In this document: one piece after another, positions 20,074-42,859 of the stretch
How positions within the stretch are numbered: the stretch's first letter is position 1
Layout of the letters: the number at the start of each line of letters is the position of its first letter
NCBI RefSeq assembly: GCF_900112935.1
Contig: NZ_FONM01000008.1
Span: 62,001-126,000, forward strand
DNA length: 64,000 nucleotides
Source: Trichococcus pasteurii
Lineage (GTDB): Bacteria; Bacillota; Bacilli; Lactobacillales; Aerococcaceae
Direction: 5' to 3'
Translations under genes and position numbers: made by a program
The notes under the pieces: generated by a model
Told to the model about the DNA's origin: nothing
What the model saw: the letters and a program-made list of their open reading frames with translations, nothing else
Databases searched by the model: none

Positions 20074-20100
20074 CGTAAGAAAGACTGTTAAACAATCAAA

Positions 20101-20158
20101 AAGATGCGTTTCCGGCCTTGGAGCAGTTGCTCCAACGGTCGGCAGCGCATCTTTTTCG
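20101..20158 (+). terminator. Terminator after xpkA
   Basis: AAGATGCG pairs with CGCATCTT, enclosing a second hairpin TTGGAGCA-GT-TGCTCCAA; T run after. Confidence 0.85.
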
Positions 20159-20233
20159 GATATTTTTTGTAAATGGAGAAGCTGCCGGGAAATACGGCAA
20201 TAATCATGTTAGTGGGACCGCGTTGCGGTCAGG

Positions 20234-20368
20234 TTGTCCGATTCAATCGGGTTATCGGACAACGCGGACTACTGAAACAAGTTGGATGTCCGATTCTATG
20301 GATTAATCGGACAATCCGATCAGCCGAAGCATGGTGGTTGTCCGATTCGATTGCGTTATCGGACAACC
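20234..20368. repeat. Array A: three palindromes at a 52-bp period
   Basis: Units start at 20234, 20286 and 20338. Each has 8-9-base arms (TTGTCCGAT and ATCGGACAA, first arm ATGTCCGAT in unit 2) around an 11-base loop that begins TC and varies. The 23-base spacers (20263-20285, 20315-20337) agree at about 13 of 23 positions. A separate GACCGC-GTT-GCGGTC hairpin lies just before (20216-20230). The array fills the gap between xpkA and the convergent ABC exporter gene; no gene is seen in it. Confidence 0.8.
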
Positions 20369-20406
20369 TGATCAGACAGTGCGTTCAGCTATGCGGCTAC
20401 CGTCAT

Positions 20407-22188
20407 TCACACGGCCTGCAGCAGGTCGTATTGGGATTGGTAGAGATGGTGATACAGGCCTTTTTGGGCCATCAGCTCTTCGTGGGTGCCGGCTTCGGCG
20501 ATGTTGCCGCCTGCCACGTAGAAGATACGGGAGCTGTTTTTGATCGTCGATAGTCTATGGGCGATGATGAAGGAAGTCCGGTCTTTCAGCAATTTCTGGA
20601 GACCTTCCTGCAGCAGTTCCTCTGTCCGGGTGTCGATGCTGGCGGTCGCTTCGTCGAGAATCAGGATTTTCGGATCGGCAAGCAAGGCCCGCGCAAAGGA
20701 AAGCAACTGCCGTTGGCCGGCCGAAAGGGTGCTGCCGCGCTCCTCCACAACTGTATGGTAGCCGTCCTTCAGGTGTTGGATGAAGTCATGTGCGCGCACA
20801 ACCTTCGCCGCTGCGATCACTTCCTCCTCGGTGGCATCCAGCTTGCCGTAGCGGATATTTTCCAGAATCGTACCGGAAAAGATGAAAGTATCCTGCAGCA
20901 TGACGCCCATTTGGCTGCGCAAAGAGCCGAGCGTGACATCGCGGACATCGTGACCATCGATTTTGACGCTGCCTTCATTGATGTCGTAGAACCGGCTCAG
21001 CAGATTGATGACGGTTGTTTTGCCCGCACCCGTTGGCCCGACCAAAGCGATGCTCTGGCCAGGTTCGATATGGAAGTTGACCTTGTGCAGAATATCTTTG
21101 CCTTCTTCATAACGGAAGGTGACATTCTCGAAATCGACTGCACCTTTGACAGGAGGCAACTCATAGGCGTCCGGCGCATCCTGGATGGAAGGCACCTCGT
21201 CCAGTGTTTCAAAGATGCGCTCCAAATAGGCCGTGGCAGTGATCAAGGAATTATAGAAGTTCCCGATATTGATGACGGGATTCCAGAAATTATTGATGTA
21301 GCCGATGAAGGCAATCAATGTTCCGGTCGAAACGGATACACCAATCTGACGGATGCCCACAAAATAGATCAGACAGGTCGTCAGTACTGAAATATTCAGT
21401 ACACCCGGCCACATCAGGAATTGGATTTTGACGGCTTTCATCCATGAAGTCCGGTATTCCTCGCTGACTTCATTGAAGATGTCATAATTGACCTGTTCGC
21501 GGGCAAACGATTGGGTGATTTTGATTCCCGAAATGCTTTCGTGGATATAGGCATTGAGATTGGACTGTTTGTTGCTCAAAATCTGAAAAGCTATCCGCTG
21601 GCGCTTCTTGATGAACAGCACCAATCCGAACAGTACCGGCAGTAAGGCCATACTGTATAAGGTCAATCGCACATCGATGAGGAGCATGAAGCCTAATGTG
21701 ATCACTACGTTGAAAAGGTCCGAAATCAGATTGATGAGACCGTTACTCAACAGGTCGCTCAGCGTATTGATGTAATTGACTACGCGGATCAGGATTTTGC
21801 CGTGGGGCCTGTTGTCGAAGTAAGCGAACGGCAAGCGCTGCAGATGAGCAAAAATATCGTAGCGCATGTCCTTCAGAATATCCTGGCCGACTTCGGTGAT
21901 GGCGTAGATCCGGTAGCGCATGCACCCGCCGATCAGGACAAGGGAAAGGATGAAGATGCCGCCCAGTCCCAGCAACTGTTGCACGTTTCCTGCGGGTATC
22001 AGGTCATCGATTGCGATTTTTGTGAAGTAAGGTCCCGCCATGCCGGCGATGTTCGCCAAAATGATGGTAGCCAATATTTTTGAAATTGGTTTTTTGTAGG
22101 GCTTGATGTAGCCGGCCAAGCGCCGGTAATGGCCCCAGTTGAATTCTTGCTCTAAACTTTCATCGACATCATACGTATTGCGTGCCAT
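20407..22188 (-). CDS. ABC exporter half-transporter, consensus-site subunit of a heterodimer
   Basis: A 593-residue type IV ABC exporter: six membrane segments (about 35-330) and one ATPase domain with Walker A GPTGAGKTT, signature LSAGQRQ and Walker B LILDEATASID with an intact catalytic Glu. The signature has Ala in place of the usual Gly. The gene overlaps the end of its partner by 20 bases, and GGGAGGGG lies before the ATG. Such pairs (BmrCD, LmrCD, YheHI, TM287/288) export drugs or lipids. The substrate here is unknown. It is second in a two-gene operon, divergent from an AraC regulator. Confidence 0.9.
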   Translation of the reverse strand: MARNTYDVDESLEQEFNWGHYRRLAGYIKPYKKPISKILATIILANIAGMAGPYFTKIAIDDLIPAGNVQQLLGLGGIFILSLVLIGGCMRYRIYAITEVGQDILKDMRYDIFAHLQRLPFAYFDNRPHGKILIRVVNYINTLSDLLSNGLINLISDLFNVVITLGFMLLIDVRLTLYSMALLPVLFGLVLFIKKRQRIAFQILSNKQSNLNAYIHESISGIKITQSFAREQVNYDIFNEVSEEYRTSWMKAVKIQFLMWPGVLNISVLTTCLIYFVGIRQIGVSVSTGTLIAFIGYINNFWNPVINIGNFYNSLITATAYLERIFETLDEVPSIQDAPDAYELPPVKGAVDFENVTFRYEEGKDILHKVNFHIEPGQSIALVGPTGAGKTTVINLLSRFYDINEGSVKIDGHDVRDVTLGSLRSQMGVMLQDTFIFSGTILENIRYGKLDATEEEVIAAAKVVRAHDFIQHLKDGYHTVVEERGSTLSAGQRQLLSFARALLADPKILILDEATASIDTRTEELLQEGLQKLLKDRTSFIIAHRLSTIKNSSRIFYVAGGNIAEAGTHEELMAQKGLYHHLYQSQYDLLQAV

Positions 22189-23926
22189 TGGTTTCCCCTC
22201 CCGTCAATCCGAGTTGTTTGCAGTAAACGTCATAGTATTTGCCGCGCTTCGCCAACAGTTCCGCATGGGTTCCTTGTTCGACGACTTGGCCTTTTTCCAT
22301 CATCAGGATCAGATCCGCATCCCGCACCGACGAAATCCGGTGGGCGATGATGAAGGTCGTTTTGTTTTCCGTCAAGCCAAGCAATTCCTGCTGGATCTTC
22401 GATTCGGTTTCCATGTCGACCGCCGAAGTGGTGTCGTCCAAAATCAGGATGGCCGGATCCTTCGCCAATGCCCGGGCCAAGGAAATGCGTTGTTTTTGAC
22501 CGCCCGACAAGCCCACTCCCCGTTCGCCGATGATAGTGGCGTATCCTTGGGGCATGCTGGTTATGAAGCCGTCCGCATCGGCAATCCGGGCCATCTGTTG
22601 GATATAGGAGCGGTCCACCTGCGGATTGCCGAAAGCGATGTTATCCTCGATCGTATCCGAAAACAAGAAGACATCCTGCATGACCATGGCGATGTTTTCC
22701 CGCAACTGGCGGACCGGATAGTCCTTGGCATTTTTGCCGTCGATAAGGACGGTTCCCGAAGTGGGATCGTAGAATCTTCCCACCAGATTAACAAGCGTCG
22801 TCTTGCCTGAGCCTGTTTCGCCCAAGATCCCCAACGTCTGTCCGGGACCTACCGTAAAGGAGACGTGCGACAGAATATCCGTTCCGGGATCATCGGAGAA
22901 GGCGAAAGAGACATCGTCGAATGTGACGGTCCCCTTGATCCGCTGGTGCTCTTGGACAGCCGTTACAGGAATCCGCGCCTCTGTGTCCAGCATGTCACGG
23001 ATTTTGACGCAGGCGGCGGAGAAGCGTTGCACATCGTTGATGAGCCATCCGCTCATGCGCATCGGCATGTTCAGCATCCAGAGGAAGCCATTGAAGGCGA
23101 CCAGGTCCCCCATCGACATTTCCCCGCGGATGACGTACAAGCCGCCGAGCACCAAAGCTATCGCGTTCAGTGTCCCGGCAAAGCCGTCGAGCCAAGGGAG
23201 ATACGTGCGGGATACGGAAGCGGAATCCAGATTGCGGCGCTTGAAGTCCTCGTTGTGCTTCGTGAATTTTTCGATTTCATGGTCTTCCCTCGCGAACGCT
23301 TTGACGATGCGGTTGCCGCCGATGTTTTCTTCCACCATCGAATTCAGGCGGGAGAAGCTTTCCCTGATCTGGAAAAACAGCGGGAAGGCTTTCTGGGACA
23401 TCTTTTGCGTCAGGATGAAGATGATCGGTGTGACTGCCACCAAAGCCAGCATCAGCGGAAGGTGGATTGTGCCCATGACTGCGACGGCCATCACGAACCA
23501 GAGGATGCTTTCCAGGATGTTGTAGGTGACCCAGGAAACAAAGTGACGGATAGCATCGGTATCCCCGGTCATCCGGGCCATGATATCCCCGACCCGGGTA
23601 TGGTTGAAGAAGTCGAAGTCCAACTCCTGCAGTTTCCGGTACATATCCTGGCGCAGCACAAAGAGTGTGTTTTGGCCGATCCGCTCAAACAGCATCTGGT
23701 AGCTGTAGCGGATGGTCGTCCGGAAGAGCGTGATGCCGATCATCAATGCCAAAATCGGCACCAATAAATTATCCTGCCCGCCATCGATGACTTTGTCGAT
23801 CAATTCCCCCGCCAAGAGCGGATTGACGATGATCAGGAGGGCATTCAGGAAAACAAATAATAAAGCCAGTAAGCTTTTGGATTTGTATGCACGTGCGTAG
23901 CGCCAAATCCATTGATAATGATTCAT
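22169..23926 (-). CDS. ABC exporter half-transporter, degenerate-site subunit of a heterodimer
   Basis: A 585-residue partner: six membrane segments, Walker A GETGSGKTT, signature LSGGQKQ, and Walker B LILDDTTSAVD in which the catalytic Glu is Asp. Together with the LSAGQ signature of the other subunit this makes one ATP site non-hydrolysing, as in LmrC-type subunits. GAGGAGG precedes the ATG at 23926. First gene of the operon. Function is probably export of a toxic compound, but no ligand is indicated. Confidence 0.9.
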   Translation of the reverse strand: MNHYQWIWRYARAYKSKSLLALLFVFLNALLIIVNPLLAGELIDKVIDGGQDNLLVPILALMIGITLFRTTIRYSYQMLFERIGQNTLFVLRQDMYRKLQELDFDFFNHTRVGDIMARMTGDTDAIRHFVSWVTYNILESILWFVMAVAVMGTIHLPLMLALVAVTPIIFILTQKMSQKAFPLFFQIRESFSRLNSMVEENIGGNRIVKAFAREDHEIEKFTKHNEDFKRRNLDSASVSRTYLPWLDGFAGTLNAIALVLGGLYVIRGEMSMGDLVAFNGFLWMLNMPMRMSGWLINDVQRFSAACVKIRDMLDTEARIPVTAVQEHQRIKGTVTFDDVSFAFSDDPGTDILSHVSFTVGPGQTLGILGETGSGKTTLVNLVGRFYDPTSGTVLIDGKNAKDYPVRQLRENIAMVMQDVFLFSDTIEDNIAFGNPQVDRSYIQQMARIADADGFITSMPQGYATIIGERGVGLSGGQKQRISLARALAKDPAILILDDTTSAVDMETESKIQQELLGLTENKTTFIIAHRISSVRDADLILMMEKGQVVEQGTHAELLAKRGKYYDVYCKQLGLTGGETNGTQYV

Positions 23927-24048
23927 AAGACAGTCCTCCTCAAAAAAGTGTATGTTAACAGGTTACTGTTTTTTTTAGGAATGAGAATGGCTTTTCTTCG
24001 TCAGATTCCTGTACAATATAAGGGTATTCAACAGAAAGGACTTTTGCG

Positions 24049-24888
24049 ATGGCCTATACACACGTACAAACATTCAATCCTGAAATTCTGTATGCTTTCG
24101 ATCCGTTGAACGAAGCCGGAAACTATTCCAAAACGCACAGCCATAACTTTCTGGAAATCAGCATCCTGCTGGAAGGGGAGGCCGATTACTTGGTGGACGG
24201 GGAACGGCAGGACTTGGGAACCGGCACCGTCATGCTGTTCAACCCGGGCGTGAAACATGCGGAGCGACAAAAAGAGGGTACGTTTTCGCATCAATTGCAT
24301 ATCGGCTTGACGAATCTTTCACTGAACGGGCTTCCGCGCAATCATTTCCCGAATAAGCGCGCTTTGCTGGATCTCGGCTGTTATGCGGATGCCTTTATGG
24401 AGAAGGCCTGGCGGGTGACGAAGGAGTTCAACGAGCAGCGGAGCGAATATCAGCTGATGGGGAAAGGACTGATATTGGAGATGCTGGGGTTGTTGCTGCG
24501 CAGTCTGGAGGACGGATCCGACAATACGATCCCTTTGGCACTTTCGCAGACGGCCGTGCGTCAACAGCATCTGGTGAATCACGCTGTCTATTATCTGGAA
24601 AACCACCATTCCGAAGAAATCACATTGGAACAATTGGCGCAGCAACTCTTCGTCAGCCCGGCCCATCTTTCAAAAATCTTCAAGGAAACTACCGGATTGA
24701 GTCCGATCCATTACCTGATCCACGTGCGCCTGAAGCATGCGAGGGAACTGCTGAAGCAGGAAGAATGGACCATCAAAGAAGTGGCACAGGCTGTCGGTTA
24801 CCAGGACGCGTACCACTTCAGCAAATTGTTCAAGAAATACTACGGAACCGCGCCTTCGCAAGTCGCCAAGGAACAGCGGACGGTGTAG
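24049..24888 (+). CDS. AraC-family regulator with N-terminal cupin
   Basis: A 279-residue protein: cupin-like sensor domain (about 15-100, with HSHNFLEISILLEGEADYLVDGE) and two C-terminal AraC helix-turn-helix motifs (about 180-275, including FKETTGLSPIHYLIHVRLKHA and the closing QDAYHFSKLFKKYYG). AAAGGA precedes the ATG. Such regulators usually respond to sugars. It is divergent from the ABC exporter pair and may control it, or may act on a distant sugar locus; nothing in the sequence decides this. Confidence 0.88.
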   Translation: MAYTHVQTFNPEILYAFDPLNEAGNYSKTHSHNFLEISILLEGEADYLVDGERQDLGTGTVMLFNPGVKHAERQKEGTFSHQLHIGLTNLSLNGLPRNHFPNKRALLDLGCYADAFMEKAWRVTKEFNEQRSEYQLMGKGLILEMLGLLLRSLEDGSDNTIPLALSQTAVRQQHLVNHAVYYLENHHSEEITLEQLAQQLFVSPAHLSKIFKETTGLSPIHYLIHVRLKHARELLKQEEWTIKEVAQAVGYQDAYHFSKLFKKYYGTAPSQVAKEQRTV

Positions 24889-24905
24889 GAAGTATCGTCA
24901 ACAAG

Positions 24906-24961
24906 AAAAGGGCTGTATCAGAACCAGAACAGAATTTTCTGGATTTGATACAGCCTCTTTA
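24906..24961 (+). terminator. Terminator after the AraC-type gene
   Basis: GGCTGTATCA pairs with TGATACAGCC, then TCTTTAT. Confidence 0.75.
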
Positions 24962-24988
24962 TATGGAAATTTAATTTACGCTCAGAGA

Positions 24989-25121
24989 TAACCCGCCTAA
25001 ACCCATTTGGCGGGCAAAAATGTCCAAGGGCACCACGAGATACCCCGCCAAAACCTATTAGGCGGGGTAAAACGTCTGAAGACAACACGATATTCCCCTT
25101 CAAAGACAATTTAGCGGGGAA
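24989..25121. repeat. Array B: three palindromes at a 52-bp period
   Basis: Units start at 24989, 25041 and 25093. The middle one is perfect (TACCCCGCC, 11-base loop, GGCGGGGTA); unit 1 keeps CCCGCC/GGCGGG and unit 3 TTCCCC/GGGGAA. Loops share an AAACC.ATT-like core. The two 23-base spacers agree at about 16 of 23 positions. It lies between convergent genes. Confidence 0.8.
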
Positions 25122-25275
25122 TTTCACGCCCTAACCCCCTAAACGCGAATCATCACGCTCTTGTAAACGCGTTCTGAATCCCAGAAATTTCCGCCTAAGC
25201 TGACTACCACACGAGGACAAAAAGCGTCCTCTTTGTGTTAGTCCTCTTAGTGCTCGATTTCTAGAGCGGGATTCA
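25122..25275. other. Rest of the convergent gap, with a short direct repeat
   Basis: ATCATCACGCTCTTGTA (25149-25165) recurs with one difference as TTCATCACGCTCTTGTA (25272-25288), the second copy covering the last codons and stop of the response regulator gene. In between is a hairpin GAGGAC-N8-GTCCTC within longer arms (about 25201-25243). No gene is apparent. Confidence 0.6.
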
Positions 25276-26850
25276 TCACGCTCTTGTATGGGTACGGCGA
25301 AATTCTTTTGGAGTGACGCCTTCGCGCTTTTTGAACAGGTAGCTGAAATAATTGGGATCGTTGTAGCCGATGTCCATCGCGATGGCGGACAGTTTGTCAT
25401 CCGTCCCGACCAACAACTCTTTCGCATGCTGCAGTCGGCATTCGGTCAGGAAGTCGATGAAAGTCTGCCCCAAGGACTGCGAGAAAATGGTACTGAAATG
25501 CGACGGGCTCAAGTTTACGGCCTCAGCCACGACATTCAGGGAGATATCCGGATCGGTAAAGTTCTCCTTTATGAATGCCAAGGCCTTTTGGATGACGCTC
25601 TGATACTTCACCATGGAAGGGTGGATGTGGGCCGCCATCAGGAAAGCCAGCAGCTTTTCGATGATCTGGGTATATTCCGCGGCATCGGCCGCCACCGCCG
25701 CCAATTGATCAAGGTCGTTCATTTTTTCAAGCAAAGGCTGCTCCGAACCGGGCTTCTTTTTTTGGACAAGATTGCCCAATTCGGTCAGCACGAAAAAGCG
25801 GAAGAGGCGGTTGCGTTCTTCAGTGTCCCCGGGCGTTCCCTGAAGCTCCAGTACCAGTTCCTCCAATTCATCCGCTTCGGTCTGGGCAATTTTCTGGGCC
25901 AGATCGAGTTTGAAAGGATTCGTCGGGGAAACTTCGCCGTCCTTGATGTCGTCCTCGTAGCTGATGATCCGTTCGGTACGCAGCACGCCGTAGGTCTGGA
26001 GCATATTCTGCGTGTAGCGGTAGGCCTGCGGAATTTCGCTGAGCCGTTCGACGATCGGTCCGATCGAAACGATCAGGTCCTCCGCTTCTTCGTCCTTCAG
26101 TTCATGGACGAGCGTCTGAGCCAGTTGGTAACTTTTTTCCAACAGCCTGTCCGTATCGCTGTCCATCAGCAGAAACTTGATGAAGCGCGATGAGATGCTG
26201 GAGAAAATGATGCTCTCGTCCGCTCCGAAAAGGAAATGCAGATAATTGCTGAAACGGAAGTAATCATCGAAATTTTTGTCGTAATGATTGGTGGCCAACA
26301 CGACGCAGGTCTTTTTCCCGACCACAGAGCGCTTCAAGGCGGCGGATTCCTGCAGCACTTCCGGAACCGACAAATCACCGCGGAAGATACCGTTCAGAAA
26401 ATGATTTTTTTTCAGCTCGAAGACGAAATTATCCGCATGCGTATCCCGTTCCATGACAGGCTCTTTTTGTTTGTCCAATACCGCGATGACGTTTTCGAGG
26501 GTTTGGATCAGCTCGGTGTCTTTGATCGGCTTCAGCAGATAGGCATCCGCCTGGACTTGGATGGCGGTGCGCGCGTATTCGAAGTCATCGAAGCCGCTGA
26601 TGAAGATGATGCGGATCCAGGGGAAGATCTTCCGGACTTCCTTGGCCAGACTGAGGCCGTCCATGAAGGGCATCCGGATATCGGTCAGCAGGATATCCGG
26701 TTTGACGTCCATGATCGAAGCCAAGGCCATTTCTCCGTCTGAGGCTTCCCCTGAAAATATCAGCGGGTGTGTTTCGGCGAGGGACAGCAGTTGGTTCCGC
26801 AGGCTGTCGCGGATCAGGTGCTCATCCTCGACAATAAAAACTTTATACAT
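25276..26850 (-). CDS. YesN-type response regulator (receiver + AraC helix-turn-helix)
   Basis: A 524-residue regulator: receiver domain (1-125; phosphoacceptor Asp in LLTDIRMPFMDG, near residue 56, with the Lys in YLLKPI), a long middle region (about 130-410) and a C-terminal AraC domain (about 420-520). AAGGAG precedes the ATG. It follows the kinase gene by 15 bases and the sensor lipoprotein gene before that. Family knowledge: the XylFII-LytS-YesN system of clostridia uses the same three parts to switch on a sugar ABC transporter; here the divergent transporter (29502 onward) is the likely target. Confidence 0.92.
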   Translation of the reverse strand: MYKVFIVEDEHLIRDSLRNQLLSLAETHPLIFSGEASDGEMALASIMDVKPDILLTDIRMPFMDGLSLAKEVRKIFPWIRIIFISGFDDFEYARTAIQVQADAYLLKPIKDTELIQTLENVIAVLDKQKEPVMERDTHADNFVFELKKNHFLNGIFRGDLSVPEVLQESAALKRSVVGKKTCVVLATNHYDKNFDDYFRFSNYLHFLFGADESIIFSSISSRFIKFLLMDSDTDRLLEKSYQLAQTLVHELKDEEAEDLIVSIGPIVERLSEIPQAYRYTQNMLQTYGVLRTERIISYEDDIKDGEVSPTNPFKLDLAQKIAQTEADELEELVLELQGTPGDTEERNRLFRFFVLTELGNLVQKKKPGSEQPLLEKMNDLDQLAAVAADAAEYTQIIEKLLAFLMAAHIHPSMVKYQSVIQKALAFIKENFTDPDISLNVVAEAVNLSPSHFSTIFSQSLGQTFIDFLTECRLQHAKELLVGTDDKLSAIAMDIGYNDPNYFSYLFKKREGVTPKEFRRTHTRA

Positions 26851-26865
26851 GCTTGTTCGCTCCTT

Positions 26866-28290
26866 TTAGGTAATCTTAGGTACTGTCACTGTGACGGTCG
26901 TGCCTTTTCTGTAGGTGCTGTCGATATCCAGAGAAGCATGGTTGCCGTAATACAACAACAGACGCTTCCGGACGTTGTAAAGGCCATAACCGCCTTCGCC
27001 GGAATCATCGACAGTGGCTTGATCTAGCCGTTTCCGGATTTCGAGCAGACGCTCCGCCTGCATACCGATGCCGTTGTCCGCCACGAAGAATTGGATTGTG
27101 TCATTTGTATAGGTCGCCGCGACGGTCACTTTCCCGGCTCGGCGGACATGCTTGGTTCCGTGGTAGACCGCATTTTCGACCAACGGCTGCAGGATCATTT
27201 TCAGCACTTCCGTCTGGAGGATTTCCTCGGGGATATCGATGGCGAACGTCAGCATGGCGCCGTAGCGGATCTGCAGAATCGTCAGATAATCTTCGACGTG
27301 GCGGATTTCTTTCTCGATCGTGATCCAGTCCTGGCCTTTGCTCAAGGAAATGCGCAGGAAGTCGGAGAGGGCGTAGGTCATCGTCTTCACCTGCTCGCTG
27401 TTGCCTTGTTCAGCCAAGGACAGGATGGCATCCAGGGTATTGTAGATGAAGTGGGGCGTAATCTGCGCCTGCAGGACCCGCAGTTCGCTCTGGGCCAGAT
27501 CGAATTGCTTCACGGCGTTTTCTTCGATCAGCACATGCAGATTCCGGGCCATGTCATTCATGCTTTCCGTAACGACGCGCAATTCAGCGACTTCCGGCTC
27601 TTTTGCGCGGTAATCCAGATGGCCTTGCGACAGTTCCTCGGAAAGGACGATCAGATCGTTCAACGGCTCCTGGATCTGCTGCGTCAAAAAGCGGTTGTTC
27701 TTCCGGGCATAATAGACGATTATCAGGACGATGACGAGCTCAAAGAGGATCAGATAATAGAGCGATACAAGCATGTCATCGCTGGTTTTCCCGGCAAGTT
27801 CGATTTCGACGCGCACAAAGTCCTGCAGGATAGCATAAAGCAGGACCGTGACGGCATCGACTTGGACCATGATGGCTTCATTTTCAGCGAACGGCCGTCC
27901 GTTGGCGATATTGCTTTCCATTTCGGAAATGTAATTGTCCAGTGTATCCAAGGTCCGCAAAGCGACATCCAGTGTGGCGGCTTCCTTGGCGGTGGTGGTG
28001 TTGGCCTGGATTTCTTCGATGGCCAGCCGCACCTTTCCTAGCTCGTTGCCGGACTCGTAATCGGTGACTTGGATGAGGCCGAAGACCAGGTCCCATAGTT
28101 CCTCCAAAACATTTTCCTGGACGATTGTCGAAACGGCATTCGCTTCCTCGACGTTCGCCAGTGCGCTGCGGTAGATCAGGATATTGCGCGTGTAAAAGAT
28201 GCTTATGACCAGCAAGGGTATCAGGGTGATGCTGAAGAGCAGGCGATTGGTCTGCTGGAAAATATCTTTGATGCTGGCTATTTTTTCCAT
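26866..28290 (-). CDS. YesM/LytS-type sensor histidine kinase
   Basis: About 474 residues: first membrane helix (about 17-35), an extracytoplasmic domain (about 36-180), second helix (about 181-203), HAMP-like linker, His_kinase region with the phospho-accepting His in QAQITPHFIYNTLDAIL (near 300), and HATPase domain with QPLVENAVYHG and DNGIGM. ATG 28290 is preferred to GTG 28293 by spacing from GGGAGG. It lies between the sensor lipoprotein and the YesN regulator and probably senses a sugar through the former. Confidence 0.92.
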   Translation of the reverse strand: MEKIASIKDIFQQTNRLLFSITLIPLLVISIFYTRNILIYRSALANVEEANAVSTIVQENVLEELWDLVFGLIQVTDYESGNELGKVRLAIEEIQANTTTAKEAATLDVALRTLDTLDNYISEMESNIANGRPFAENEAIMVQVDAVTVLLYAILQDFVRVEIELAGKTSDDMLVSLYYLILFELVIVLIIVYYARKNNRFLTQQIQEPLNDLIVLSEELSQGHLDYRAKEPEVAELRVVTESMNDMARNLHVLIEENAVKQFDLAQSELRVLQAQITPHFIYNTLDAILSLAEQGNSEQVKTMTYALSDFLRISLSKGQDWITIEKEIRHVEDYLTILQIRYGAMLTFAIDIPEEILQTEVLKMILQPLVENAVYHGTKHVRRAGKVTVAATYTNDTIQFFVADNGIGMQAERLLEIRKRLDQATVDDSGEGGYGLYNVRKRLLLYYGNHASLDIDSTYRKGTTVTVTVPKIT

Positions 28291-28302
28291 CACGTTGCCT
28301 CC

Positions 28303-29271: not shown

Positions 29272-29435
29272 GGCGGGAAACTTCCTTCCTATATATATCG
29301 AAATTAAAACGCTGCCATCGAATAGTTTAGCACAGTTTATCAGGCCTTCGGAAAAAAACAAAGAAAATCGGAAAAAATCCATATGGAAACGGATACAAAT
29401 CAGTAAGAATATCAAGAAACTGGAAAAGATAGTGA

Positions 29436-29450
29436 ATGTAAGCGGTATCC
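29436..29450 (+). promoter_or_regulatory. Candidate cre site before the monosaccharide transporter operon
   Basis: ATGTAAGCGGTATCC differs at one base from WTGNNARCGNWWWCA. It sits just upstream of a TACAAT (29459-29464), so CcpA could block the promoter. Confidence 0.5.
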
Positions 29451-29501
29451 GATAAAGGTACAATACGTATATCAAATAAAACAGCAGTGGAGGAATCAGG
29501 G

Positions 29502-30590
29502 ATGAAATTCAATTGGAAGAAAAGTTTTCTTACAGCAGCAACGTTAGTATCTGCAGTAGCACTAGGTGCCTGCGGGGATGGCGAAGCATCCACAGGGGAT
29601 GCCGGCTATGTCGGGATCGCGATGCCGACGAAGTCAGCCGAGAGATGGATTGCGGACGGCAACAACATGGTCACTGAGTTGGAAAAACTGGGCTATAAGA
29701 CTGACCTTCAATACGGCGAGGACAAAGTAGAAAACCAAGTGGCCCAAATCGAAAACATGATCACAAAAGGTGTGGACGTTTTGGTAATCGCTTCCATCGA
29801 CGGATCCGCCTTGACGGATGTACTTGGAAAAGCAGCGGACGAAGGTATCGAAGTCATCGCTTACGACCGCCTGTTGATGAATTCCGAACACGTGGACTAC
29901 TATGCAACTTTCGATAATTTCGGAGTGGGTGTGCTGCAGGCTTCCTACATTGAAGATGCATTGAACTTGAGTGAAGGCGAAGGCCCGTACAATATCGAAT
30001 TGTTCGGCGGCTCTCCTGATGACAACAACGCCTTGATCAATTACAACGGCGTCATGTCCGTCTTCCAACAATACGTCGACAGCGGCCAATTGGTAATCCC
30101 TTCCGAACAAACGAAATTCAACCAGATCGCAACCCTGCGTTGGGACGGATCGACTGCACAAGCGCGGATGGACAACTTGCTGAGCGCAAACTACACGGAT
30201 AAAACATTGGATGCTGTCTTGTCTCCTTACGATCCAATCAGCTTGGGGATCATTTCTTCCTTGAAAGGCGTAGGTTACGGTTCAGCAGAAAAACCATTAC
30301 CAGTCATCACTGGTCAAGATGCAACCCAGGCAGGCGTGAAATCGATCATTGCCGGCGAACAGACACAAACGATCTTCAAAGATACGCGCGTTTTGGCTCA
30401 AAACACAATCGAGATGATCGAAGCAATCTTCAACGAGGAAGAAGTGCCTGTAAACGATACAGAAACGTATGACAACGGCGTGAAGGTCGTACCGACTTAC
30501 TTGGCTAATCCGGTTTCAGTGGACAAAGAAAATTACCAGGCGGAACTGATCGATACAGACTACTATTCTGAAGAAGATTTAGGCTTATAA
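29502..30590 (+). CDS. chvE: Monosaccharide ABC transporter binding lipoprotein (ChvE/XylF-like)
   Basis: A 362-residue lipoprotein: signal peptide with lipobox LGAC near residue 28, then a type I binding fold ([50 protein letters not shown]). This is the ChvE/XylF group that binds xylose and other pentoses or hexoses. GGAGGAA lies before ATG 29502; the in-frame GTG at 29487 is on the ribosome site itself. First gene of a four-gene operon and divergent from the three-component sensor genes. Confidence 0.9.
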
Positions 30591-30655
30591 AAATGTGAAT
30601 AACGGAGACTTCCTTTGTGACGCCAAGGAAGTCTCTTCCATAGAGGAGGGGTATC

Positions 30656-32188
30656 ATGGCGGATTATATATTGGAGATGCGGAATATCGTCAAAGAATTT
30701 TCTGGCATCCGGGCATTGAGTGATGTGAATCTGAAAATCGAACGCGGGGAAATTCATGCCCTATGCGGCGAAAATGGCGCGGGTAAATCCACGCTGATGA
30801 ACGTGTTGAGCGGATTGTATCCATACGGCAGCTATGAGGGGGACATCATCTATAACGGTGAGACATGCAAATTCAAGGATCTGAAGGACAGCGAAAACAA
30901 AGGGATCGTCATCATCCACCAGGAGTTGGCACTCAGCCCGTATCTGTCCGTAAGTGAAAATATTTTTCTTGGAAATGAACAGGCGAAGCGCGGCATCATC
31001 GATTGGGACCTGACGGAAAAGAAGACAACCAATTTATTGAAGACGGTCGGGTTGAAAGTGAACCCCAATACGCTCGTTTCCCAGATTGGGGTCGGGCAGC
31101 AGCAATTGGTCGAAATCGCGAAAGCTTTCTCGAAATCGGTACGCCTGTTGATTTTGGATGAACCGACAGCCGCACTGAATGAGGAAGAGAGTGCCAATTT
31201 ATTGGAGCTGATCAAGGAATTCAGAAGGCAAGGCATCACTTCCATCATCATTTCCCATAAGTTGAACGAGATCGTCAATGTGGCCGACCGCATCACCATC
31301 CTGCGCGACGGAAAAACGATTGAAACGTTGGAAAAAGAAGCCATCAACGAAGAACGCATCATCCGCGGCATGGTCGGAAGGGACTTGACGAACCGTTACC
31401 CTGAACGCCATCCGAACCTCGGCGACGTCTACTTTGAAGTGAAGGATTGGACGGTGCATCATCCGGTTGATGCGCACCGCATCATGAACGACAAGATCAA
31501 CTTCAATATCCGCAAAGGCGAAATCGTCGGGATTGCCGGATTGATGGGGGCAGGCCGGACCGAATTCGCGATGAGCGTCTTCGGACATTCCTACGGCAGC
31601 AACATCTCCGGCAAAGTATTTAAAGAAGGTCAGGAGATTTCGGTCAAGGATGTGCCTGTAGCCATCGAAAACGGGCTTGCTTATGTATCCGAGGACAGGA
31701 AAGCGCTGGGTTTGAACCTCTTGATGGATATCCGTGAGAATACGACAATCGCAAGCTTAGGGAAAATCAGCAAGCAGGGCGTCTTGGACAAAGAAAAAGA
31801 AGTCCAGATAGCCGAAGAATACCGCAAAAAAATGCGGACAAAGACGAACTCGATTTACCAAAAAGTCAGCAGTCTCAGCGGCGGGAACCAGCAAAAGGTA
31901 GTCCTTGCCAAATGGCTGATGACGGAACCTGATGTGCTGTTCCTGGATGAACCGACACGCGGAATCGACGTCGGCGCCAAATACGAAATCTACACGATCA
32001 TCGAGGAGATGGCGGCTGCAGGCAAATGTGTCTGCATCATCTCTTCCGAATTGCCTGAGATATTGGGGATGTGCGATCGCATTTACACAATGAATGACGG
32101 CAAATTCACAGGTGAGGTTTTACGCAAAGACGCGAACCAAGAATCGCTGATGAATCTAATGACTAGGGAAGAAGAGGGTGTGTTATAG
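30656..32188 (+). CDS. mmsA: Monosaccharide ABC transporter, double ATPase subunit
   Basis: A 510-residue protein with two ATPase domains. The first has Walker [10 protein letters not shown] (near 39) and Walker [13 protein letters not shown]; the second has the usual degenerate Walker A (GLMGAGRTE) but an intact signature LSGGNQQKV and Walker [13 protein letters not shown]. The [10 protein letters not shown] segment is typical of the MmsA/GguA/XylG group. GAGGAGG lies before ATG 30656. Powers uptake with the permease encoded directly after it. Confidence 0.93.
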
Positions 32189-33388
32189 ATGGAAACGACG
32201 AACGGCGTAAAAAAGGAAAAGCAAACACTGGATCTAAAAACAAAGGCGCTTGATATTTTCAGCAAATACAGTATGGTAATTATTCTGATTGGGTTATTGA
32301 TCGCATTTCAACTGATGACGGACGGCATCTTCTGGCGGCCGCTGAACATCACCAACATCGTGCTGCAGAACAGCCACATTCTGGTTCTGGCTGCTGGTAT
32401 GCTATTGGTGGTCCTGTTGGGCCATGTCGATCTTTCGGTCGGTTCGGTGATGGCTTTCGTGGGTGCCATCTCCGGTATTTTGATGGTGAACTGGAACGTC
32501 AGCCCTTGGTTAGCGGTGCCGATCTGCATCGCGATCGGAGCGATCATCGGCGCTTGGCAAGGTTACTGGGTAGCCTACTTCGGCATCCCGGCCTTCATCG
32601 TCACTTTGGCGGGGCTGTTGATGTTCCGCGGGCTGACACAGGTTGTGTTGGGCGGGCAATCGTTGGCGCCTTTCCCTGAAATATTCCAAAAAATCTCTAC
32701 AGGCTACCTGCCTGATTTGACTGACAGCAGTATCCATCTGCTGACGATGATCCTGGGAGTCCTCATCGCTGCGGCACTTGTTTTCGGACAATGGCGCACA
32801 CGCGAAAAACGCAAAAATAATCTTTTCGAAGTGGAATCAATGAATACGTTCATGGTGAAAGCAGTCATGACAGCAGTTGTAATGATCGGGGTTACTTATA
32901 TCTTCGCCTCTTACCAAGGTTATCCTGTCATTTTGGTAATCTTGGGAGTCATCGTAGCAGCCTATGCGTTCTTGACGAACAAAACCGTTGCGGGACGCCA
33001 AATCTATGCAACAGGCGGAAACCGTAAAGCGGCGGAATTGTCCGGTATCAAAACGAAAAAAATCACTTTCTGGGTATTCGTGAACATGGGTGCGATGGCT
33101 GCGTTGGCCGGCCTGATCTTGGCGGCGCGTCTGAATGCGGCCACACCGCAAGCGGGTACTTCCATGGAATTGGATGCGATGGCAGCCGTATACTTCGGCG
33201 GAGCCTCCACTTCAGGCGGGATCGGCACCATCGTGGGAACGATCGTCGGCGGTTTGGTTATGGGTGTCTTGAATAACGGGATGTCCATTCTCGGTGTCGG
33301 CGTCGACTGGCAGCAAGCAATCAAAGGTTTGATCCTCTTGTTGGCTGTCGTCCTGGATATCTACAACAAGAAAAAGAAAGCAGCGTAA
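32189..33388 (+). CDS. mmsB: Monosaccharide ABC transporter permease
   Basis: A 399-residue membrane protein with about ten hydrophobic segments and the family signatures GHVDLSVGSVMAF (near 75), YFGIPAFIVTLAGLLMFRGL (near 130) and AMAAVYFGGASTSGGIG (near 330). It is longer than RbsC-type permeases and of the size of XylH/GguB. It begins at the base after the ATPase stop, so translation is coupled. Confidence 0.93.
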   Translation: METTNGVKKEKQTLDLKTKALDIFSKYSMVIILIGLLIAFQLMTDGIFWRPLNITNIVLQNSHILVLAAGMLLVVLLGHVDLSVGSVMAFVGAISGILMVNWNVSPWLAVPICIAIGAIIGAWQGYWVAYFGIPAFIVTLAGLLMFRGLTQVVLGGQSLAPFPEIFQKISTGYLPDLTDSSIHLLTMILGVLIAAALVFGQWRTREKRKNNLFEVESMNTFMVKAVMTAVVMIGVTYIFASYQGYPVILVILGVIVAAYAFLTNKTVAGRQIYATGGNRKAAELSGIKTKKITFWVFVNMGAMAALAGLILAARLNAATPQAGTSMELDAMAAVYFGGASTSGGIGTIVGTIVGGLVMGVLNNGMSILGVGVDWQQAIKGLILLLAVVLDIYNKKKKAA

Positions 33389-33400
33389 GGGGTTGAGCAG

Positions 33401-33724
33401 ATGACCGAACAAAAGACAGCCTTATTGATTTGTACGGCAGGCATCACGACCGGCTTGCTGGTGAAGAATGTGCAGAACGCGGCGGATGAGAGGGGACTGG
33501 ACATCCATGTCTACTCCGCACCGGCGATCATCGCGGAGCAGGCGATCCAAAGCCAAGCGATCGATGCCCTGATGATCGGCCCGCAATCCAAATACGAAAT
33601 CGCGCGGTTGAAAGATTTCCTGACCTATAAGGCAGTGCCTTACAAGCTGATCTCGAAGGAAAATTATGAGATCCTGGACGGGGAAGCTGTGCTGGAGGAG
33701 ATCATCGCGTTGATCGGGGAATAA
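33401..33724 (+). CDS. Orphan PTS EIIB-like protein (lactose/cellobiose type)
   Basis: A 107-residue cytoplasmic protein of the EIIB lactose/cellobiose fold, with the phospho-accepting Cys at residue 11 (LLICTAGITTGLLV) in the position of CSAGMST in ordinary members. It is 12 bases after the ABC permease gene and ends the operon before a terminator. No EIIA or EIIC gene is near, so it cannot form a normal PTS permease by itself. It may carry a regulatory phosphate that links PTS state to the ABC transporter; this is inference. Confidence 0.8.
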   Translation: MTEQKTALLICTAGITTGLLVKNVQNAADERGLDIHVYSAPAIIAEQAIQSQAIDALMIGPQSKYEIARLKDFLTYKAVPYKLISKENYEILDGEAVLEEIIALIGE

Positions 33725-33740
33725 TCACAAATAAGTATGG

Positions 33741-33770
33741 GAGCCGTCTCAAGTTGAGGCGGCTCTTTTT
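33741..33770 (+). terminator. Terminator after the sugar transporter operon
   Basis: GAGCCGTCTCAA pairs with TTGAGGCGGCTC (one G-T), then TTTTT. Confidence 0.92.
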
Positions 33771-33826
33771 GCTGGGAACTTTTATAAGCCGGATAAAATA
33801 TTTGCGAACGGTTTTTCGGCTCTCAG

Positions 33827-33953
33827 CTCCGGTGAACGGAGGCTTCGCCGGAGTTCGGCTTGCATTTTTTGTTGTTCTCCGGTGAGGATGCCTTCGCCGG
33901 AGAAGGTTCCGATAGTTACCGATGTCCTCCGGCGAGCGGGCGCCTCACCGGAG
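33827..33953. repeat. Array C: three palindromes at a 50-bp period
   Basis: Units start at 33827, 33877 and 33927, exactly 50 bases apart. Arms are CTCCGGTGA or CTCCGGCGA against TCGCCGGAG or TCACCGGAG (unit 3 swaps the C/T, keeping the pairing), loops 8-9 bases. The same arm sequence is seen in array D. No gene is seen between 33771 and 34091. Confidence 0.85.
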
Positions 33954-34021
33954 CTGTGATCAGAATCCGAATTGTCCTTCGATAGTGAGCGCGTCTGAGC
34001 ATATTTTGCTGATAGTTCCTT

Positions 34022-34053
34022 CTTGACTTAAACTAACATCAAGGGTTTATGAT
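34022..34053 (+). promoter_or_regulatory. MerR-type promoter before the RibD-like gene
   Basis: TTGACT (34023-34028) and TATGAT (34048-34053) are 19 bases apart, with a partial palindrome CTTAAA/ATCAAG (34027-34043) in the spacer. The layout equals that of the promoter at 41992 and is typical of promoters untwisted by MerR-family activators. Confidence 0.6.
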
Positions 34054-34091
34054 GGAATCAGAAATTAAGATTCGGAACGGAGGAAAAAGAA

Positions 34092-34814
34092 ATGAACAGA
34101 CCTTACAGAACGATTTGCCATATGGCGATGTCGATAGACGGGCGTGCGGCGGGGCACTATTTAAGTGCAGCCGAATTCGGGCCGTACGGGAAAGCCTATG
34201 AGGAGACGCTACAAGCTTACGGTTCGGACAATTGGATCTGCGGGCGGATCACGTTCGAGCAGCACATCACGTTCGGCAACAAAGTGGATCTGTCCGATTA
34301 CTCGGATGAAGCAATCCCAAGGGAAGATTACATTAACCCGGCTGCATTCAGCTCTTACGCAATCGCGGTCGATCCGGAAGGGAAACTGGGCTGGCAAACG
34401 AATGTGATCGGCGACGAGTATCCGGAACGAAGAGGCGATCACATCGTCACGATTTTGAGCGAGGCGGTCTCTGATCGGTATCTGGCCCATCTCAGGAAAG
34501 TGGGCGTTTCCTACATCTTTGCGGGGAAGAGCAAACCTTTGTCGATGACGGTTGCCTTGGATAAGCTTCACAAATATTTTGGCATCGAAACTTTCATGCT
34601 GGTCGGCGGCGGGTTTGTGAATGGATCGTTCGCAAGCGAAGGTTTGATCGATGAAATCAGCCTGATTATCGCACCGCTCGTCGAAGGCGTATCCGATTCC
34701 GTTTCGCTGTTCGAGTTCGGGAGCAGTTCCGATCAGCGTATCCGGAAGTTCAGACTGGATAAATTCGAGCGGATCGGTCCGGATGGCATCCGGCTGAATT
34801 ATCTTTCGGAGTGA
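34092..34814 (+). CDS. RibD C-terminal-domain / dihydrofolate-reductase-like protein
   Basis: A 240-residue protein of the RibD C-terminal fold, an NADPH-dependent reductase fold found in riboflavin synthesis and in many stand-alone reductases of unknown substrate. Typical are the start YRTICHMAMSIDGRAAG, the LVGGGFVNGSFASEGLIDEISLII block (near 175) and PLVEGV. GGAGG lies 9 bases before the ATG. It has no riboflavin genes beside it and appears to be a single-gene unit with a MerR-type promoter. A role in stress reduction is possible but not shown. Confidence 0.85.
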   Translation: MNRPYRTICHMAMSIDGRAAGHYLSAAEFGPYGKAYEETLQAYGSDNWICGRITFEQHITFGNKVDLSDYSDEAIPREDYINPAAFSSYAIAVDPEGKLGWQTNVIGDEYPERRGDHIVTILSEAVSDRYLAHLRKVGVSYIFAGKSKPLSMTVALDKLHKYFGIETFMLVGGGFVNGSFASEGLIDEISLIIAPLVEGVSDSVSLFEFGSSSDQRIRKFRLDKFERIGPDGIRLNYLSE

Positions 34815-34834
34815 AACGAGGGTCATGCAGAACG

Positions 34835-34886
34835 AAAGAACCACCGGATCCAAGGCGTTTTCCCCTCGAATCCGGTGGTTCTTTAT
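34835..34886. terminator. Bidirectional terminator between the RibD-like and VOC genes
   Basis: Perfect 15-base arms AAAGAACCACCGGAT / ATCCGGTGGTTCTTT. Confidence 0.93.
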
Positions 34887-34918
34887 GTTGATGGCGTGAT
34901 TTAGAGCGCTTGGTCCGC

Positions 34919-35287
34919 TTATTCAGCCGCCTCCCGGACGGCGTAGTAGTTGCCGTCCCGGTCGGGGAAGTTGAAGGTCCTGGTGCCGCCCATTTCGATT
35001 ATTTCGCCGACCGTCTCATTGTTTTCCTTGAAGCGCGCGTACAGCCCATCGAAATCAGAGATGTCGAACAATAAGGAAGGCTTGTTGGAGGCCACTTCTG
35101 GTGAATTCTTTCTGATGAAATCGATATTGAAAAGCTGCAGATTGCACATCGGATTCACCGCCAGCACAATGCTGATGGAATCCCCAAAGTCATAGCGGCC
35201 GACTTCTTTGAACTCAAGATAGTGTTTCCAAAAATCGGCATTCGCTTCCACGTCCGCTACATAAAGCATGATATTCGCTGTGGTCAT
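34919..35287 (-). CDS. VOC-fold (glyoxalase/bleomycin-resistance-like) protein
   Basis: A 122-residue single-domain VOC protein with the usual start (MLYVADVEANADFWKHYLEFKE) and end (TFNFPDRDGNYYAV). GGAGG precedes the ATG. Members are lyases, dioxygenases or binding proteins; the glyoxalase I metal residues cannot be placed with certainty, so the substrate is unknown. Single gene. Confidence 0.85.
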   Translation of the reverse strand: MTTANIMLYVADVEANADFWKHYLEFKEVGRYDFGDSISIVLAVNPMCNLQLFNIDFIRKNSPEVASNKPSLLFDISDFDGLYARFKENNETVGEIIEMGGTRTFNFPDRDGNYYAVREAAE

Positions 35288-35466
35288 TTCATTTCCTCCG
35301 TTTCTGTTCGGTCATAAGCTCATTATACGCCGGGAATTATTCGGAGGCCAACGAGAGGGCTTTCGCGGCAGGTGTTTTTGGATGAAAGGCTTTGGATTCG
35401 TATTTCCCGCTTTGAATTGTTAGAATAGAGGTATAAAGGGAGCAACTAGAGAGAGGGCGAAAGCGA

Positions 35467-36153
35467 TTGAACAGCAATAATGAGGCATTCCTGGATTATT
35501 TCAATGATATCGAAAGTTTCTTCAACAAGGAATACAAGCCCGACCGCGGGAAATCCTACTACAACTTTTATGAGTTGGTGGAGAACGCCTCGCGGTATGA
35601 CAGCTATGTGAAAAGGAAACGGGATGACTTCCAGATATTGGGGGATCTGCGCAATTTCCTGAGCCACGGGAACCAGAGCGATCTGGTGCTCGTCAACGAG
35701 GCATCCCTGAATCTGATAAAAGCGATCCACGAACAACTGTTGAAACCGAAGACCACTTTCGACATCAAGTCGGATGATGTGAAATTCTTCAAGGAAACAA
35801 CCCCGCTTTCCGCAGTCCTTGAAACAATCCGGAATACCGATCTGACCCAATTTCCGATCAAGGACGGAAACGGCAAAGTGATTGGGTTGTTGACGGAGAA
35901 CGGCATCACCCACTGGCTGTCCCAACATGCGCATGAGGCAAGCATTTCCATCGGCGGAACGCTTGCGCGCGATATCCTTCTGTTGGACGAGAACAAAAAT
36001 AATTTTGCCTTCATCAAGAAGGATGCGACCATCTATGAAGCCGAAGCACAGTTTGATAACCAAAAGATCGATGCGCTGTTGGTGACGGACAGCGGCAAAA
36101 ATACAGAAAATCTGCTCGGCATCATCACGCGATTCGACTTGGTGGAAGTGTAA
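35467..36153 (+). CDS. HEPN-like N-terminal domain fused to a CBS pair
   Basis: A 228-residue cytoplasmic protein. The C-terminal part (about 95-228) is a CBS domain pair (LTQFPIKDGNGKVIGLLTENG and IDALLVTDSGKNTENLLGIIT), which normally binds adenosine nucleotides. The N-terminal part (1-90) is helical and carries RNFLSH at residues 62-67, an RNxxxH motif such as forms the active site of HEPN ribonucleases. The start is TTG 35467, preceded by GAGAGGG. If the HEPN call holds, this is a nucleotide-gated RNase or a relative that has only kept the fold. It stands alone with its own terminator. CBS is certain, HEPN is inference. Confidence 0.8.
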   Translation: MNSNNEAFLDYFNDIESFFNKEYKPDRGKSYYNFYELVENASRYDSYVKRKRDDFQILGDLRNFLSHGNQSDLVLVNEASLNLIKAIHEQLLKPKTTFDIKSDDVKFFKETTPLSAVLETIRNTDLTQFPIKDGNGKVIGLLTENGITHWLSQHAHEASISIGGTLARDILLLDENKNNFAFIKKDATIYEAEAQFDNQKIDALLVTDSGKNTENLLGIITRFDLVEV

Positions 36154-36169
36154 CGACAGACTAATGATA

Positions 36170-36212
36170 AAGACAGGCTGCCCCATTTTTATGGGACAGC
36201 CTGTCTTTTTTT
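36170..36212 (+). terminator. Terminator after the CBS gene
   Basis: AAGACAGGCTG(C)CCCAT pairs with ATGGG(A)CAGCCTGTCTT, then T run. Confidence 0.93.
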
Positions 36213-36239
36213 GAGCAGTGCGCCGAAATGCGCGCGCAG

Positions 36240-36368
36240 CTCCTGTGAGTGACGCCTTCGCCGGAGGACAATGGTATTAATCGCCCTCACCTCCGATTGA
36301 AGCGGGCTCGTCGGAGAACGCAACTCGGAATGATAGCCGTCCTCCGTCGAAGACTGCACTCGCCGGAG
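36240..36368. repeat. Array D: three palindromes at a 51-bp period
   Basis: Units start at 36240, 36291 and 36342. Arms are variants of CTCCGGCGA and TCGCCGGAG (units 1 and 3 with one internal mismatch, unit 2 with CTCCGA/TCGGAG), loops 8-9 bases. Same arm family as array C 2.4 kb away. Between convergent genes. Confidence 0.75.
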
Positions 36369-36380
36369 GAGGAAGACGAT

Positions 36381-36408
36381 AAAGGGCCGCCTCGAGAGGC
36401 GGCCTTTG
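36381..36408 (-). terminator. Probable terminator of the SulP gene
   Basis: On the minus strand AAAGGCCGCCTC pairs with GAGGCGGCCCTTT (one bulged base), followed by TTTAT; the T tract is short. Confidence 0.6.
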
Positions 36409-36415
36409 GGCATTC

Positions 36416-42461: not shown

Positions 42462-42471
42462 ATGTAACGAC

Positions 42472-42518
42472 AAAAAAATCCCATCAGGCCTTGTTTGGCA
42501 GGCTGATGGGATTTTTTC
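42472..42518 (+). terminator. Terminator after the MerR gene
   Basis: AAAAAATCCCATCAG pairs with CTGATGGGATTTTTT. Confidence 0.93.
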
Positions 42519-42519
42519 A

Positions 42520-42856: not shown

Positions 42857-42859
42857 TTT

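Follow-up and report, generated by a model that had tools for sequence, protein, structure and literature searches.

Arrays of regularly spaced palindromes at gene ends in Trichococcus pasteurii as candidate phased protein-binding sites

Bacterial interspersed mosaic elements (BIMEs) are described as regularly spaced repetitive extragenic palindromes (REPs) in alternating orientation that bind integration host factor (IHF) or gyrase (PMC2817692). REPs of the GTAG- and CGTC-tagged superfamilies lie mostly between convergent and co-directional open reading frames (ORFs) (PMC3733652), and TnpA-REP uses the GTAG tag to a varying degree (PMC8266576). Among Gram-positive systems, pneumococcal BOX is a modular hairpin repeat (boxA-boxB-boxC) with variable middle units, and BOX, RUP, SPRITE and insertion sequence (IS) elements are over-represented between convergent genes (PMC3049150). 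Here, four arrays of spaced palindromes are described in Trichococcus pasteurii, in a stretch of 64,000 nucleotides (hereafter, the window; positions 62,001 to 126,000 of contig NZ_FONM01000008.1, our C21:62001-126000, from a genome of 3.2 Mb, our G000), together with comparable arrays elsewhere in the genus and family. As judged from sequence features, there is about an even chance that these arrays are helically phased rows of double-stranded DNA sites for one or more predicted proteins, placed behind gene ends and mainly behind convergent ones.

An earlier interpretation of the window from its letters alone (the sequence-only reading) had proposed four arrays of shared geometry, and all four were found, with steps of 50-52 bp (G, C and L numbers are our handles for genomes, contigs and loci):

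20234-20366, no strand assigned: array A, three 29-nt palindromes TTGTCCGAT-N11-ATCGGACAA; units at 20234, 20286 and 20338; steps 52 and 52
24992-25118, no strand assigned: array B, three 23-nt palindromes CCCGCC...GGCGGG; units at 24992, 25044 and 25096; steps 52 and 52
33827-33953, plus strand: array C, trio CTCCGGYGA...TCRCCGGAG of 27, 26 and 27 nt; units at 33827, 33877 and 33927; steps 50 and 50
36240-36368, minus strand: array D, trio of the C family in the orientation opposite to C, 27, 26 and 27 nt; units at 36240, 36291 and 36342; steps 51 and 51

As had also been proposed, the arms belong to three families: one for A, one for B, and one common to C and D, in which D is reversed. The middle unit of A is one base off TTGTCCGAT-N11-ATCGGACAA, the third unit of B is diverged, and the middle unit of D, read by eye, is degenerate. 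The assignment of three of the four arrays to gaps between convergent genes likewise stands, with A in the gap 20074-20406, B in 24889-25275 and D in 36154-36415, while C lies in the co-directional gap 33725-34091. The further claim, that arrays fill all long convergent gaps of the window except one holding a structured element, holds by the gene calls of our home-made caller apart from 42462-42859, the one longer convergent gap of the window without an array, which is flanked by MerR-type and OsmC-type genes.

The nearest known kind is the REP/BIME, and on the best reading the arrays are analogous to BIMEs without a REP tag or a required transposase. Like BIMEs, they are intergenic palindromes in regularly spaced clusters. 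Unlike the alternating units of a BIME, their units run head-to-tail, with mixed polarity in only 1 of 80 A arrays; several arm families share one period, and there is neither a GTAG excess nor a required Y1 transposase. They also resemble the tagged REP superfamilies in lying mostly between convergent and co-directional ORFs, and differ from them in that the tags are not a rule in Trichococcus. Pneumococcal BOX shares the modular hairpins, the variable middle units and the convergent over-representation, but the present arrays have a near-exact period and diverse arms, and no flanking modules of the boxA or boxC type were noticed in the gaps read. The hairpin trios belong to a large class of short palindrome arrays of which no description was found: no title or abstract opening among those covered, which leave out most subscription journals, describes such a plan, and the main text of the Trichococcus genome paper contains none of the terms 'repeat', 'palindrom', 'intergenic' or 'inverted' (PMC6950789).

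The period is common to arms of different sequence. At least seven arm sequences share 50-52 bp in the stretches sampled from two Trichococcus genomes, which supports the proposal of a shared plan at about five helical turns, and unit spans differ by arm type (23-35 nt) while the period stays the same. Family A steps measure 52 bp in 264 of 269 cases (51 in four, 53 in one), and unit length is 29 nt in 358 of 358; the spacers, 180 of 224 of which are distinct at the named loci (60 loci, 43 from Trichococcus and 17 from 'Sedimentibacter sp. SX930', picked for at least one full step), show a random-pair identity of only 0.35-0.42. Family B steps are 52 bp in 11 of 11, and the 34 full copies of C have a first step of 50-52 bp, a second of 50-51 and a total of 126-130. 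Compensation between loop and spacer length, which would be a sign of constraint at the level of the period, was not seen within C (correlations of -0.16 and -0.11). An arm-blind scan over periods of 36-99 bp placed at 50-52 bp 15 of 16 arrays in 400 kb of G006, both arrays it detected in the window, and 6 of 9 on contig C26 of the same genome as the window, the rest being two at 66 bp that resemble clustered regularly interspaced short palindromic repeats (CRISPR) and one at 96 bp. One of the six on C26 resembles a pair of operators. The arm types added at 50-52 bp are GACTGTT and GAACAACC in the genome of the window and ATGAATAA, CGACAATT and CGGGAAAT in G006.

Chance does not produce such spacing in the controls. 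Palindrome pairs with like arms in 400 kb of C26, a sample drawn without regard to hits, are 52 bp apart in 14 of 17 cases at the lowest threshold (51 bp in two, 56 bp in one), and two Markov sequences gave no pairs under the same conditions. When the range was widened, the pair scan picked up a CRISPR-like array at 65-68 bp, and the two Markov sequences gave one pair each, at 272 and 292 bp. The genome of the window carries 18 perfect A sites and 27 C sites against none for reversed control patterns; a C-trio profile gave 148 matches on both strands, or 67 loci after clustering, in the stretches sampled, and none in reversed sequence. Loci chosen around hits were kept out of rate estimates, and an arm-blind centre-to-centre count across different arms was discarded because a right arm pairs with the next left arm and creates false centres at 1.5 periods.

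Three units per array, part of the plan as first proposed, are the commonest size in C (35 of 69 clusters of at least two units, a count that includes some chance pairs) and in B (5 of 10), both in stretches chosen for hits. This is not a rule, and it does not apply to A, whose arrays have one to four units in the genome of the window, four or five in G006 and up to 13 at the named loci. At C44:13775-14703 (L094), several C trios about 190 bp apart lie in tandem in one gap and form 16 consecutive hairpins.

Arm sequences are largely confined to the genus. Of 13 genus genomes, 10 have exact A sites and all have exact C sites, with 0-113 and 12-135 sites per genome, respectively; no A site was found in 136 further genomes, and a C site was found once, in one genome outside the genus. 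A variant, A', in which one arm base and its partner are both changed, keeps a similar loop and the 52-bp steps and is present in 8 of the 13; in G002 it forms a run of 15 exact units, including one 49-bp step.

The spacing extends further. When 863 kb from other genera of the family were scanned arm-blind over periods of 28-100 bp (20-140 kb per genome wherever more than a fragment was sampled), 48 clusters were found, 37 at 40-43 bp and 6 at 51-52, with one each at 32, 37, 77, 82 and 94 bp; a Markov control gave none in 900 kb. The clusters are not independent, and 5 of the 48, retained in the totals, lie in frames open for at least 200 codons. The 43 phased clusters come from G022 (16), G027 (10), G013 (8), G015 (6) and G023, G029 and G031 (one each), that of G031 lying inside a 3087-codon open frame; nine other genera sampled at 20 kb or more had none. 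Applied to 864 kb of two Trichococcus genomes, the same scan returned 30 clusters, 23 at 50-52 bp, four CRISPR-like at 65-66 and one each at 91, 96 and 100 bp. Five outgroup genomes of the order (183 kb, one contributing only 3 kb) gave 11 clusters, all from one CRISPR-like locus at 62-65 bp. Individual loci read by eye illustrate the pattern: about 12 units GGGTAACAAC...GTTGTTACCC with a 51-bp period at L259:4288-4885 and about seven units AACCTATCTAGAATC...ATCCAGATAGGTT with a 41-bp period and convergent ORFs on either side at L291:8520-8830; in another genus of the family, 43-bp palindromic units over 2.7 kb, again with convergent ORFs on either side, at L312:16126-18860; and arms that shift along the stretch while the steps hold near 40-42 bp at L299:4757-5060.

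Orthologous gaps reveal both turnover and constraint. The A gap has three units in G000, four in G006 and G012, one in G011 and seven in G002; it has none in G001, G004, G005, G007 and G009 and is rearranged in G003. The B gap has three units in G000, G006, G012 and G001, two in G002 and G004, one in G003 and none in G005 and G007; in G009 and G011 it carries other families instead, four A'-type units and a C-type trio, respectively. Depending on the species, a single convergent gap can therefore contain any of three families. Array D is present in eight species and absent from G003, G004 and G005; G008 and G010 have no readable orthologous gap for any of the four arrays. Array-less gaps differ over much of their length, and no clean empty site with a target-site duplication was seen among them. 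Where arrays are retained, the outer five arm bases have a pairwise divergence of 0.062 (D, eight species) and 0.029 (C, six species), as against 0.17 and 0.19 for inner arms, 0.38 and 0.30 for loops, 0.22 and 0.32 for spacers, and 0.26 and 0.30 for gap flanks (D and C, respectively). The body is 126-129 bp long in every row of the orthologous C and D arrays. Gapped cells, counted only in columns where G000 has a base, number 16 of 3606 (D) and 8 of 1899 (C) in the array body and 373 of 3683 and 356 of 3598 in the flanks. Between G000 and G006, in which five arrays were compared (three of eight having no usable ortholog), there are 543 identical, 101 changed and 2 gapped positions inside arrays and 540, 88 and 99 outside. 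Outer-arm sequence and spacing are therefore held while loop and spacer sequence is not, a sign of selection at these fixed loci.

Enrichment in convergent gaps, which had been expected from the window, is borne out in G000 and G006, where 864 kb contain 107 convergent junctions, 31 of them with an array, as against 16 of 443 for co-directional and 2 of 105 for divergent junctions. The arrays placed were those of three profiles plus 22 arm-blind arrays at 50-52 bp (one operator-like pair excluded), and the genes were those of the home-made caller. Among gaps of at least 150 bp, the proportions are 29 of 53, 16 of 163 and 2 of 97 (Fisher p about 1e-14 for convergent); at 200-350 bp they are 17 of 24, 2 of 59 and 0 of 37, and at 350-600 bp 7 of 14, 12 of 49 and 0 of 27. 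Since an array lengthens its own gap, the junction counts are safer than those by gap length. Genus-wide, 80 distinct A arrays divide into 43 convergent, 28 co-directional, 0 divergent and 9 at stretch ends, and 39 C arrays (at least 50 bits, in hit-chosen stretches) into 17, 18, 2 and 2. At C21:38019-38334 (L102), two tandem C trios lie in a gap called divergent, an exception to placement at 3' ends.

If the arrays are phased protein-binding rows, a dimer of some DNA-binding protein would sit on each palindrome. Successive sites are close to whole helical turns apart, five turns in Trichococcus and four or five in related genera, which would bring the bound dimers onto much the same face of the DNA and allow them to cooperate; different arm families would be served by several related proteins. 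Dyads, specific arms, free spacers, rigid length and near-whole-turn steps are together what a cooperative dimer on one face would need. At 10.5 bp per turn, the A half-sites (0, 20, 52, 72 ...) depart from one face by no more than about 1.5 bp. The earlier suggestion that in-phase spacing suits a protein array gains from the periods near four or five turns in other genera, the protein itself being a prediction. The position of the arrays at 3' ends, mainly convergent ones, points to the insulation of gene ends as the likely effect, or to a topological role: a protein-DNA block, or a marker of topological domains, would stop leftover transcription or supercoiling of one gene from entering the other, comparable to the E. 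coli BIMEs that bind gyrase or IHF. It is possible, and put forward only tentatively, that an undescribed architectural system extends through the family, in which fast-diverging proteins read phased palindrome arrays at four- or five-turn steps and thereby mark convergent ends as insulators or topological boundaries, with geometry as the conserved signal and arm sequence as a changeable address. If the geometry counts, the arrays are a natural case in which selection keeps helical phasing at many loci in several genera even as site sequences are replaced, and a direct test of how bacteria separate convergent genes and of what the long-puzzling 3'-end palindromes such as REPs and BIMEs do. Material is abundant, two genomes alone having 49 junctions with arrays in 864 kb.

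Several observations weigh against phased protein binding. The C half-sites do not share one face and the C steps of 50-51 bp amount to about 4.8 turns, so phasing in C is looser; neither these steps nor the 43 bp of some G022 arrays are exact multiples of 10.4-10.5 bp. The asymmetric A loop (AA...GA) is not needed by a symmetric dimer, the A to A' swap alters both arms together, as a stem would, and C arrays lean opposite to their genes, 12 against 6. No binding protein was found; one of the 10 genes flanking five array regions encodes an RpiR-type regulator and the others no obvious DNA-binding protein, the regulators on either side of B have no demonstrated link to the array, and many arm families would require many proteins. 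Outside Trichococcus, four genera (G013, G015, G022 and G027) account for 40 of the 43 phased clusters, long arrays can split into several clusters, and 10 of 16 other genera sampled at 20 kb or more have none or a single cluster in a long open frame. Convergent preference is also weaker there, with 4 of 32 convergent, 10 of 212 co-directional and 2 of 34 divergent gaps by poor gene calls that were checked against ORF lists at a few loci only. Arrays are readily gained, lost and resized between species, and 53 of the 99 gapped positions outside arrays between G000 and G006 fall at locus A, where a whole 52-bp unit differs. Lastly, parasitic repeats and IS elements likewise prefer convergent gaps (PMC3049150), and convergent preference alone does not imply function, because BOX, RUP, SPRITE and IS elements as well as REPs show similar placement.

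The most probable rival is that the arrays are REP/BIME-like selfish repeats spread by a transposase, with convergent gaps tolerating insertion and the arms kept for the enzyme. The arms confined to one genus (C once beyond it) at widely varying copy number, the presence, absence or replacement by another family at the same orthologous gap, the dispersal of C trios as a polar unit that also occurs in tandem, and the convergent enrichment of the pneumococcal elements all fit this explanation, which we nevertheless consider somewhat unlikely. Outer arms and lengths are kept after vertical inheritance while the flanks gain and lose bases, and mobility alone does not predict near-whole-turn periods in several genera. 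The REP tags, too, are no rule here: with the tag sought within 8 nt of the palindrome base and an anagram as control, GTAG adjoins 30 of 348 A units (anagram GATG 25) and 2 of 140 C units (anagram 5), while CGTC adjoins 2 A units (anagram CTGC 68) and 19 C units (14%; anagram 6); none of 35 B units has a tag, and C alone has a CGTC excess. The Y1_Tnp family, in which RAYT was not separated from IS200-type members, is present in 12 of 13 genus genomes; the one without it, G009, is 98% complete and carries 77 C and 11 A sites. A RAYT-like transposase, which the sequence-only reading had named as a possible partner, is thereby ruled out as a required one.

Alternatively, the spacing may be a by-product of tandem duplication, in which the founder unit happened to be 52 bp long and its length was passively inherited. 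Units are homogeneous within an array in G002, gains and losses occur in 52-bp steps, and polarity is uniform in 79 of 80 A arrays. Nonetheless, spacers vary strongly in sequence between arrays and almost never in length, different arm families have a common period, and 43 of 48 clusters in other genera fall at 40-43 or 51-52 bp. Passive inheritance is accordingly a decidedly unlikely account.

Whether the palindromes act as DNA or as RNA bears on the other suggestion of the sequence-only reading, that matched arms would suit RNA hairpins guarding the 3' ends of both transcripts, a reading taken here to include hairpins that terminate them. Many units have perfect stems, and the 3' and convergent placement, the asymmetric A loops and the paired difference between A and A' agree with this, the last, which keeps pairing, fitting either a stem or a dimer of new specificity. 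Within families, however, compensatory change is absent: Watson-Crick pairing in 34 C copies is not clearly above that with shuffled right arms (p 0.07, 0.32 and 0.40), and among 187 distinct A units, changes are one-sided in 181 cases, double changes that keep pairing number 8 (independence predicts 6.1), and double changes that break it number 5. Mismatches of the G.T and C.A kinds are about equal on one strand (59 and 61). The polarity of A units, as set by the AA...GA loop, is independent of transcription, with 12 sense and 16 antisense in co-directional gaps and 20 and 23 in convergent ones. A T-run hairpin lies inside only 2 of 49 array regions, and a strict terminator lies outside the array in 28 of the 49; by reading, each of the four window gaps has a separate terminator outside its array, and those array-less gaps of loci A, B and D that were read have terminators as well. 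Rfam gave no matches above the gathering score in the window. Because the arms lack compensatory change and their polarity ignores transcription, RNA hairpins are very improbable, and the covariation, strand and terminator tests all disfavour them.

The terminators and the genes on either side of the four window arrays are as follows:

17668-20073, plus strand: phosphoketolase gene, left neighbour of A
20098-20156, no strand assigned: ordinary A-run/T-run terminator hairpin adjoining array A (inverted-repeat scan), present in array-less orthologous gaps too
20407-22188, minus strand: ABC transporter gene, right neighbour of A
24049-24888, plus strand: AraC-type regulator gene, left neighbour of B
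24906-24960, no strand assigned: terminator-like hairpin adjoining array B (inverted-repeat scan and sequence reading)
25276-26850, minus strand: response regulator gene with an AraC-type DNA-binding domain, right neighbour of B
33401-33724, plus strand: PTS IIB gene, left neighbour of C
33740-33772, plus strand: terminator hairpin in the interval between the upstream gene and array C (sequence reading)
34092-34814, plus strand: RibD C-terminal-type reductase gene, right neighbour of C
35467-36153, plus strand: CBS-domain gene, left neighbour of D
36169-36208, no strand assigned: terminator hairpin adjoining array D (inverted-repeat scan)
36416-37855, minus strand: sulfate permease-family gene, right neighbour of D

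A binding protein encoded beside the larger arrays was also considered and set aside, as the neighbours of five array regions are mostly not obvious DNA-binding proteins: the 10 genes comprise metabolic and transport genes, small membrane-type proteins, one RpiR-type regulator and one gene without a Pfam match. Three regulators adjoin array regions (the RpiR-type one and the two beside B), and none recurs.

Array B and its terminator-like hairpin together form a dispersed unit of about 220 bp (window 24899-25127), copies of which are roughly 71-84% identical. Next to it, at window 25136-25285, lies a distinct repeat of about 150 bp with near-identical ends (...TCATCACGCTCTTGTA); it has many copies across the genus, mostly about 80-95% identical, and some orthologous gaps retain a single end-like copy.

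CRISPR arrays share with the present ones a palindromic repeat and a fixed-length spacer of varied sequence. They differ in that here the loop varies and spacers are shared within arrays, and the CRISPR-like arrays met in this work have periods of 62-68 bp; the neighbouring genes that were read are not cas genes, no dedicated cas search having been made. One such CRISPR-like array, TCGCACTC...GAGTGCGT, with steps of 65-68 bp and parts masked as N, lies at C26:357512-363505 (L084 and L085). On the same contig, at C26:391745-391818, two near-perfect palindromes of the GATACGTAAACGTTTACGTATC type lie 52 bp apart and resemble a repressor operator pair, not an array.

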